From Xylogone sp. PMI_703 (Eukaryota; Ascomycota; Leotiomycetes), in contig JAJTUQ010000005.1 in assembly GCA_021399445.1 (NCBI GenBank), positions 3,782,001 to 3,846,000 on the forward strand: a stretch of 64,000 nt of DNA, in the 5' to 3' direction. A model generated the notes under the pieces. It made no database searches and was not told where the DNA came from. It saw nothing but the letters and a program-made list of their open reading frames with translations. The position numbers and the translations under genes are program-made. Shown here one piece after another: positions 43,407-45,792 of this stretch (position 1 is its first letter; the number at the start of each line of letters is the position of its first letter).

Positions 43407-44953
43407 AAACATGTCATTAATTATGGTTTTAAACTCCATTGGTTTCCCCGATAATTGGCTGCCAACTTGGCTGCCAGTTGGTCAACTTGTCAACTTAGTA
43501 AATACGAAGTACGAGCTCGTCTGACTGGATTGGATGTTTCCCACCATCACAGCCGCCGGAGGAATAGGGAAAGACTCGAAGTTCGGCCCCGAGATCCTGC
43601 TGGGCGCCAGCAAAATGCCCACTAGATACAGCTAGCGCCCAGGGGCTTACGACGACTACGAGCGAGGCCATGCATAACAGGGGCTGTGTGCTCAGGCAAG
43701 ATTATTGGATTGTCCCGGCTCACGGCAAAGCAGCAGCCCTCTCTTTCTGCTTCGCTGAGCGAATGCATTTCACTCTCAGTTCTTTGCAGATACGGTAGGT
43801 ATTCTCCGCAGAATGACCCCGTATTCTATGTCGTACATGCCGTATCATTGCAGGATACAGTACTATGCTAACTTACGGCCGCGTTAGAGCTGTACAATTA
43901 CACCTACAATCACTCAACCGCACAATTATTGCACAACGTCGATACTAGAAGTCACGACTTGGTCAATCCCCTGAGCAAGCAGTGTCGCGTGTTGCGCCAA
44001 GCAATGGAGCTGGGGTTGTGCGCCCGTTCCGCCAGGGAAATATCCCATCTCCATCTCGATGTCCATCTCCTCCACACTGGATATTAATTAATTACGCCAT
44101 TGCGACCGAACGAAAATTGCCCAAGATAGCTACAAGTACACCAACAGGAACAGGGACAATAATGACTGCCTGCGCTGACCTATTCTAAATCCATATATTA
44201 CGATAGCTTCCAGCAGAAATTGACGATCCAGGTACAGGACGGGCAACTAAACCCGCATTCCTTCGCGCAAAACAACCACAACAACAAGACAAGCCGGAGA
44301 AATAGAAACGGAGGCGTAGTCAGACGGAAAGGGCTGTGACCGCTGATCTCCATGATGTCGGTGGACTTTTGCCCCTGCGCCCCTTCCTCTCCTTTTTCTT
44401 CCTTGCAAAGTAAGGTTAAAAAGGTAACCTCAGATCCACCCCGCTGCGAGCGTTGCAGCACACGAAGCACAAGCGTCTTGGCTCTTTTGATCCTTTCGCA
44501 GTAAGCGCGCCGATGTATCAACAGACGCACCACGTGAGTATCAGTTTCAGTAATTAATCAAAATTGCCAGATTTATGGCCTAACATGCTAGAATCTGATT
44601 CTTGAACATGACTTTGTAATGCTAGAATACAAGTACAAGTACACGATACATCAAACCAGAAAACAGGTACTGTACTACTTCCGATCCTGATTCGTCTCAC
44701 GCAACCACGCATATGCCAGGAACAAACCTCAAACGCGGATAAATATAGTTTCTTACATAACAGCACTCTAAGCTAATCACACCCATGCACGATGTTTAAC
44801 GTTAAGTTCAATCCTTCTATGGTACTCCCGGTGGACAGAGTAGTTGGCGTAGTGGTACATAAATCGCCACCAAAATTTGGCGAGCTCTGAAGCAGCAGCA
44901 GCATCACCATGCGAACCACGCTGTGCTTCCGGAGTGAGGGAAAGCAATTTTTC

Positions 44954-44970
44954 AAAAAAAAACAAAAAAA
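44954..44970 (-). terminator. Pol III poly-T terminator of the tRNA gene
   Basis: On the minus strand, nine bases after the tRNA end there are seven T, one G and then nine T. Such runs stop RNA polymerase III and support real Pol III transcription of the locus now or in the recent past. Confidence 0.75.
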
Positions 44971-44979
44971 GATATATTA

Positions 44980-45111
44980 CGACACCTGTGCGATTCGCTG
45001 TGAAATGTTAGAAATTTCTAAAATATTTTCAAAGAGAATAATACTTACAACGCACGCGCCCGAAGGCAACTGCTTAGCAGGCAGTCGAGTTAACCACTCC
45101 CCCAAGGTGCC
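44980..45111 (-). tRNA. tRNA-Ser(GCT) gene split in the T-loop by an intron-like 51-mer
   Basis: On the minus strand, exon A is 45111-45049 and exon B is 44997-44980. Joined, they make an 81-nt class II tRNA. Acceptor GGCACCT pairs with AGGTGTC (one G-T) with discriminator G. The D-stem GGG/CTC and the loop GAGTGGTTAA are present. The anticodon arm ACTGC/GCAGT carries the loop CTGCTAA with GCT at 45078-45076, reading AGC/AGU serine codons. The variable arm is TGCC-TTCG-GGCG. The T-stem GTGCG/CGCAC encloses TTCGAAT only when 44998-45048 is removed. The A box TGGGGGAGTGG is near consensus; the B box is split by the insert. No intron stands at the usual 37/38 site. A poly-T terminator follows. 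It could be a spliced gene or one disrupted by an intron-like insertion. Confidence 0.88.
44998..45048 (-). other. Spliceosomal-type intron inside the tRNA T-loop
   Basis: Read on the minus strand it begins GTAAGT, has TTTCTAACA with a branch-point A a few bases before the end, and finishes TTTCACAG. The length of 51 nt is typical of protein-gene introns in this window. It interrupts the T-loop between tRNA positions 55 and 56 (TT|CGAAT). Excision exactly at GT and AG restores the T-arm and B box. Confidence 0.8.
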
Positions 45112-45792
45112 TGTTGTTAAGCGATGAGCGCGCTTAATTCAATATATTTGCTCGCGGTGGTCACAATAAATTAGTTGGCACAGTATTATATAATCGAACA
45201 CTGACCGTGCCATATATTTTGTCCACCGCGAGGTACGGTACTGTACATGAAATGCACTGCTAGCCCTGGAAGCTTGGTAGCAGAGCAGATCCAGAAAACA
45301 TAAGGCAACCGTGATGTGATAAAAATGGCATCAGGGTGCTTACATAAGCTTTCATGCAGGTAGGAAGAAGTTGACCAGAAATCTGAAGTCACGTGTTTAA
45401 TGGTTCCATTTCGTTGCTCACCCATAATCCTCATCTTGTAACTCATCAAATGATCGATAGATTAATGTATCGCGACTCTCAAAAAGAAATGTCACTCACA
45501 AACGCCTCATGCTGCTAGATGTGCCATCTCCCGGGCTCTTGTGTGCGCCCTAAATAAATATACAAACCCTATTCCATCTCATATATCTCGAGATAATGCA
45601 ATGCACGCCAGTAAAACTCCCCATCATCGTTCGTAATGATACAAGAAATGCCCTCATGTATGTCTCCACAAACTCCAACCAGACAATGCAGGCAGTTGAT
45701 GGCCATGAAAGTCCCGCAGTAAGGGCCATCTCACACTCGCTCGCTCTCCTTCTCTTACCTTCCTTCTACCCTTGAATCGCCGGATACTTTGA
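45112..45792. other. Intergenic between the tRNA gene and SET9
   Basis: AT-rich flank of the tRNA gene and 3' region of SET9. An 87-codon minus frame at 45186-45449 has no recognisable feature and is not called. Confidence 0.5.

Follow-up and report, generated by a model that had tools for sequence, protein, structure and literature searches.

U6 is a Pol III product, and rRNA, 18S rRNA included, is made by Pol I. According to PMC5832005 (2017), only two small structured RNAs, U3 and U6, were known by then to carry an intron frequently, and a reference given there has the fission yeast U6 intron removed by the spliceosome. The mRNA-type introns of fungal U6 genes (via PMC5832005) resemble the insert described here in their GT-AG ends, their length of about 50 nt, their branch motif and their location in the gene of a small Pol III RNA, but U6 is itself a component of the spliceosome, whereas tRNAs are not and have a splicing endonuclease of their own. 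Fungal U3 snoRNA genes, whose small structured product is not a tRNA, likewise carry short spliceosomal introns (PMC5832005), and the nuclear 18S rRNA genes of fungi carry, to judge from a title among the references of PMC11782384, spliceosomal-type introns in a non-coding RNA gene, again not that of a tRNA. Conversely, the introns described for nuclear tRNA genes lie mostly at position 37/38, with minor cases elsewhere, and are cut by the tRNA endonuclease; in yeast, the tRNA splicing machinery is cytoplasmic (PMC4090602). Nuclear-type tRNA genes split at unusual sites are described for the red alga Cyanidioschyzon, with its ectopic introns and permuted tRNA genes, and for the Guillardia nucleomorph, and the passages devoted to them in PMC3978253 and PMC4090602 tie these splits to bulge-helix-bulge processing or find no clear motif, and do not describe them as spliceosomal. 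Searches of the open-licence literature brought up no earlier description of a nuclear tRNA gene with spliceosomal introns.

The DNA considered here is a stretch of 64 kb (the window, C21:3782001-3846000) of the 50.1-Mb, 25-contig genome of Xylogone sp. PMI_703, a leotiomycete. On its minus strand, at 45111-44980, lies a tRNA-Ser(GCT) gene of 132 nt that yields a complete class II cloverleaf with the serine anticodon GCT only once 51 nt (44998-45048) are excised, and its parts and flanks are as follows:

45049..45111, minus strand: tRNA-Ser(GCT) exon 1, tRNA positions 1-55 (cloverleaf parse; ARAGORN tRNA-Ser(gct) after excision)
44998..45048, minus strand: predicted 51-nt T-loop intron between tRNA positions 55 and 56 (unique optimum of structure-only excision)
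45043..45048, minus strand: putative 5' splice site GTAAGT (sequence)
45007..45011, minus strand: branch-point-like CTAAC, branch A at 45008 (4th base), ten nt from the intron end (sequence)
44998..45000, minus strand: putative 3' splice site CAG (sequence)
44980..44997, minus strand: tRNA-Ser(GCT) exon 2, position 56 to discriminator G73 (44980) (cloverleaf parse)
45094..45104, minus strand: A-box-like TGGGGGAGTGG, uninterrupted (sequence, read against the general A-box consensus)
44954..44970, minus strand: Pol III terminator-like T7 at 44964-44970, next T9 at 44954-44962 (sequence)
45141..45149, minus strand: TATA-like AAATATATT, 30-38 nt upstream of the gene (sequence), of putative function

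The insert has the GT-AG ends, the extended 5' site and the branch motif near the 3' site of a U2-type intron; to our knowledge, canonical 37/38 tRNA introns have no GT-AG or branch signals. In the spliced form, the acceptor stem has 7/7 pairs, one of them G.U, the D-stem 3/4 (G-C, G.U, G-C), the anticodon stem 5/5 with the anticodon loop CTGCTAA, the variable arm 13 nt, and the T-stem 5/5 with the T-loop TTCGAAT. The insert opens with GTAAGT, closes with CACAG and separates T54 T55 from C56, which bears out the T-loop site 55/56 given in a preliminary description of this DNA. The same description had the arms pairing after the exact removal of this stretch with its GTAAGT, CTAAC and CACAG, and on this the cloverleaf parse agrees with a structure-only scorer that removes any single stretch of 30-105 nt, scores the cloverleaf and the conserved tRNA bases and is blind to GT/AG. 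Since exactly the GT...AG excision, and no other, was optimal for this scorer (score 45.8, without slip), the insert is not a product of chance. ARAGORN reported no tRNA in the unspliced gene and tRNA-Ser(gct) in the spliced one, and the whole 64-kb window gave zero tRNA by Rfam at its thresholds or by ARAGORN, the tRNA model reaching 19.7 bits at the unspliced locus against a gathering score of 29.

A pattern search for tRNA-Ser(GCT) across the genome gave 22 matches, two of which were judged to be tRNAs, namely the window gene and a copy on C1, and BLAST of the joined window exons against the genome returned just these two and no intronless one, although a strongly diverged copy could escape it. 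The intact tRNA-Ser(GCT) gene elsewhere that the preliminary description had held up against its own reading was therefore sought in two ways and did not turn up; the one other gene counted has the same T-loop intron, at the same site, 48 nt long and diverged, together with an extra 53-nt insert in the variable arm (GTAGGT...CTAAC...TTAG). The two mature sequences agree at 78/81 exon positions and the two T-loop introns at 43/53 aligned positions. Exon constraint is visible in one compensatory change, at the anticodon-stem pair 29:41 (T-A in the window gene, G-C in the C1 copy), and one pair-keeping change, one-sided from G.U to A-U, at the acceptor pair 2:71. All stems pair in the window gene, as had been stated, and in the C1 copy as well, and neither has the stem decay of a tRNA pseudogene; the covarying D-stem (GGG/CTC) formerly put forward has to be given up, the D-stem being identical in both copies found and the compensatory change lying at 29:41 instead. 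AGC and AGT codons are read by tRNA-Ser(GCT) alone and number 45 in SRP72 and SET9 taken together, so that, with these codons in use and no intact copy found, the intron must be removed unless an intact copy was missed.

Further related elements are present. An isolated 3' part of tRNA-Ser(GCT), T-loop intron included, is a fragment at C19:774163-774248 (L012). A short MITE-like inverted-repeat element (45151-45232, minus strand; ends CTCGCGGTGG / CCACCGCGAG) lies immediately upstream of the window tRNA gene, and parts of it match C1:3092269, C12:4814981, C4:215143 and C1:7121208 as well as the flank of the C1 tRNA-Ser copy. Another inverted-repeat-like element, at about 44825-44940, lies downstream of the window gene and likewise downstream of the C1 copy, and the duplicated unit thus takes in both flanks.

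The insert of the window gene is one of many. A survey, partial and biased in that it misses other T-stem pairs and has T runs built into its patterns, gave 34 inserts with GT-AG ends, each 48-64 nt long; they interrupt 30 tRNA genes, which represent 15 isoacceptors, and fall into nine kinds of position. The survey started from at least 53 matches to RF00005, with 63 of 1824 candidates scored, and two of the 53 matches listed are tRNA-Arg(TCT) genes interrupted in the same manner at 25/26; their joined exons, used as a BLAST query, returned the same two genes and two intronless copies, decayed by eye, while seven typed fungal tRNAs joined as a query returned only two tRNA-Pro(AGG) genes, with D-loop inserts. 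Searches for a B box followed by a T run gave 82 and 41 rows, against 6 and 11 for reversed-pattern controls, and, once some chance-looking rows and those that the RF00005 list already contained were left aside, 53 further short loci, six of which were later extended; since these searches also gave intact tRNA genes outside the RF00005 list, the absence of an isoacceptor from that list proves little. The split genes are those of Ser(GCT) (2), Arg(TCT) (2), Arg(ACG) (1), Pro(AGG) (3), Pro(TGG) (1), Phe(GAA) (3), Leu(TAA) (2), Leu(AAG) (4), Leu(CAA) (3), Ile(AAT) (2), Trp(CCA) (2), Thr(AGT) (2), Thr(CGT) (1), Thr(TGT) (1) and Met(CAT) (1). By the analyst's reading of the position numbers, the 34 inserts lie in the D-loop (14), the variable arm (5), at 26/27 (4), 30/31 (3), 25/26 (2), 53/54 (2), 55/56 (2), 31/32 (1) and 32/33 (1); none is at 37/38, where by the parses 17 of the 30 genes additionally hold an intron. 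Tallied by reading, 66 tRNA genes are without such an insert (51 of the 53 listed RF00005 matches and 15 of the 53 B-box loci), which, with the 30 split genes and two Arg(ACG) genes whose insert lacks AG, makes 98 tRNA genes seen. Two exact-pattern scans looked for related split tRNAs in viral contigs and gave 0 matches each.

The stems of the split genes are sound with few exceptions. Among the 29 spliced genes that were parsed (all but L171), 27 have a fully paired acceptor stem (7/7) and two fall one pair short (6/7); both Trp genes and the Met gene have 4/5 pairs in the anticodon stem, and weak D-stems occur in L129 and L172, the latter with a weak T-stem as well; both were counted although partly decayed-looking (D-stem 2/4). 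Left out of the 34 were the Arg(ACG) inserts without AG (L119, L120) and the decayed, fragmentary or unclear L012, L101, L102, L116, L141, L151 and L161. In L119 and L120 the 31/32 insert ends in CCTG or CCCG instead of AG while the stems are sound, and the Arg(ACG) fragment L141 has CACG before the anticodon loop where AG is needed; these three copies may be dead or may be spliced otherwise. The decayed-looking intronless tRNA-Arg(TCT) copies (L101, C21:5038121; L102, C12:89379) may be old genes that predate the intron or copies of spliced RNA.

Whether the boundaries emerge without splice signals was less uniform across loci than in the window gene. At the 24 loci whose best insertion score reached 40 or more and exceeded that of the uninterrupted reading by 2 or more, GT-AG was the commonest end pair among equally good excisions (15/24 loci; mean over 256 pairs 1.4), with the runner-up dinucleotide pairs reaching 10 of the 24; GT-AG was thus not co-optimal everywhere, another parse being favoured at some loci, and the structure-only scorer discriminates poorly in the D-loop, in which many excisions score equally. 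ARAGORN gave the correct anticodon for 3/30 genes unspliced and for 24/30 spliced, with some tRNA called in 29/30 spliced genes. When the excision was shifted in 26 of the 30 genes (the four with two inserts omitted), its count fell from 20 at zero shift to 19 at 2 nt, 15-16 at 5 nt, 5-7 at 10 nt and 0 at 20 nt; as a 2-nt shift is tolerated, the program locates the insert and not its exact ends.

Comparing copies of one tRNA with and without the insert supplies a further line of evidence. Two tRNA-Thr(AGT) genes equal, once the D-loop insert is removed, two intronless tRNA-Thr(AGT) genes at 72/72 positions, and the alignment of filled against empty genes alone places the insert at GT...AG or one base over. 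Similarly, the tRNA-Phe gene L135 is without the D-loop insert found in L117, L144 and L155, and the Ile(AAT) gene L085 is without the D-loop insert of L159, the mature parts being the same. In copy pairs of Arg, Pro and Thr, the exons are 72/72 identical and the introns 65, 68 and 90% identical, respectively, against a 49% identity baseline for shuffled introns. Fast-changing introns amid frozen exons are the mark of genuine introns, and with filled and empty copies in one genome, the gain of introns by a non-coding gene can be studied directly.

The 34 inserts also carry signals that were not imposed on them. They were cut by flank patterns requiring GT...AG, so that GT and AG are not independent evidence, while the G at position 5, the branch motif and the length are. 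The median length is 55 nt (range 48-64), position 5 is G in 34/34 and position 6 is T in 26/34, exon base -1 is G at 20/34, the 3' ends are TAG (17), CAG (15) and AAG (2), and YTRAY, its A lying 7-18 nt from the 3' end of the intron, is present in 32/34, against a mean of 5.6 and a maximum of 12 in shuffles. By these features the tRNA inserts look like mRNA introns of the same genome, the comparison being with two of them, both in the window, that of SRP72 (48 nt, GTATGT...CTAAC...CAG) and that of SET9 (52 nt, GTAGGT...CTTAC...TAG). Two U6 genes hold one and three mRNA-type introns, 51-54 nt long, among which one has the unusual 5' site GTTCGC, and only one of the two genes reaches the U6 gathering score unspliced; in the gene with three introns (L106, C21:3523655-3523760), the 5' junction of intron 2 is spanned by a B-box-like GGTTCGCAATCC. 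SRP RNA gave one match spanning the whole model and therefore has no evident intron. BLAST among the 34 tRNA and four U6 introns joined, at E<=0.01, only same-position copies of the same or sister tRNAs; introners, which are mobile spliceosomal introns, were rejected, no similar intron sequence being present at unrelated sites, and group I or II introns were rejected on the length of 48-64 nt, as a matter of general knowledge.

The promoter of the Ser(GCT) genes poses a problem of its own. The A box is intact, but in the DNA the T-loop insert splits the B box, a point that the preliminary description did not raise, and the search for a replacement B box near the Ser(GCT) genes gave nothing above 8/11 matches, which makes Pol III recruitment a puzzle for the reading preferred below. 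The TATA-like stretches 30-38 nt upstream of the window gene and 28-36 nt upstream of the C1 copy (TAATAAATT) may compensate for the split B box, a role that upstream TATA boxes have in fission yeast. Two tRNA-Trp(CCA) copies on C19 (L136, L137), in which a 53/54 intron splits the B box, have a B-box-like stretch of 10/11 (GGTTCAAATCC, GGTTCAATTCC) across the gene 3' end and flank, possibly a replacement promoter element.

The window gene is very probably a working nuclear tRNA-Ser(GCT) gene whose T-loop holds a U2-type spliceosomal intron, with many more such introns in the tRNA genes of Xylogone sp. PMI_703, on the strength of how it is built, of like inserts in 30 genes, of empty sites that match exactly and of the exon constraint, all of which can be read in the DNA. 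A functional tRNA gene with an mRNA-type intron is what had been proposed, and the 34 inserts, spread over 30 tRNA genes, make for a broader pattern than was then thought. It is very unlikely that a junk insert killed the gene and that other genes supply the tRNA: the genome does contain tRNA fragments and decayed copies (L012, L101, L102), and two Arg(ACG) inserts are without AG, but neither the pattern search nor BLAST revealed an intact tRNA-Ser(GCT), the C1 copy combines the same intron with a compensatory change, AGC and AGT are used 45 times in two verified genes, and the same kind of insert recurs in 30 genes with stems sound in nearly all. The pseudogene was rejected on stem integrity, the shared intron and this recurrence. 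Ectopic bulge-helix-bulge introns cut by the tRNA splicing endonuclease, as in Cyanidioschyzon, are known at sites outside 37/38 (PMC3978253, PMC4090602), which speaks for this reading, yet a simple, slip-free test for a 4-bp central helix at the mapped junctions was positive at 1/34, against 1.5 expected from shuffles. Moreover, the G at position 5 (34/34) and the branch motif (32/34) were not selected for, and ordinary 37/38 introns coexist in 17 genes; with the window insert at 55/56 and without the bulge-helix-bulge, an intron of the endonuclease type was rejected as extremely improbable.

The inserts could also be spliceosomal in tRNAs made within Pol II transcripts instead of by Pol III. 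The spliceosome normally acts on Pol II transcripts, and the insert breaks up the B box of the Ser(GCT) genes, both of which speak for this reading, but T runs directly follow the gene in both Ser(GCT) copies, the A box is intact, and U6, a Pol III product in other eukaryotes, has like introns here. In addition, 0/34 inserts contain five consecutive T, the longest run being four; shuffled inserts include on average 2.9 with a run of at least five, but zero such in 3.75% of trials, so this avoidance is weak evidence for Pol III. Taken together, transcription by Pol II appears unlikely.

Under the preferred reading of a spliceosomal intron in a Pol III gene, Pol III would read through the intron, with its longest T run of four, up to the T7 terminator, and the spliceosome would recognise GTAAGT, CTAAC and CAG, the joining of the exons restoring the T-arm. 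In tRNAs with both kinds of intron, the spliceosomal one would be removed first, in the nucleus, and the tRNA endonuclease would cut at 37/38 afterwards, an order that we infer from the cytoplasmic location of the yeast tRNA splicing machinery (PMC4090602). Such an intron would work like that of U6, in a host RNA for which it is apparently unrecorded, and would form a new class among tRNA introns if splicing is shown.

In this lineage, the spliceosome is likely a general tRNA-maturation machine, with introns in about one third of the tRNA genes seen (30/98 in the partial and biased survey) and at many positions; for some codons, AGC and AGT first, its action would be obligatory, and many pre-tRNAs would pass through two unrelated splicing systems, the introns being a new class of tRNA intron. 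In a genome of this sort, standard tRNA finders would overlook or mislabel many genes, as ARAGORN did in all but 3 of 30. The splicing of tRNA is taught as a system distinct from that of mRNA; if the present reading is true, large numbers of transcripts that are probably Pol III products must get to the spliceosome, and if tRNAs need the spliceosome, translation would depend on mRNA splicing in a new way.
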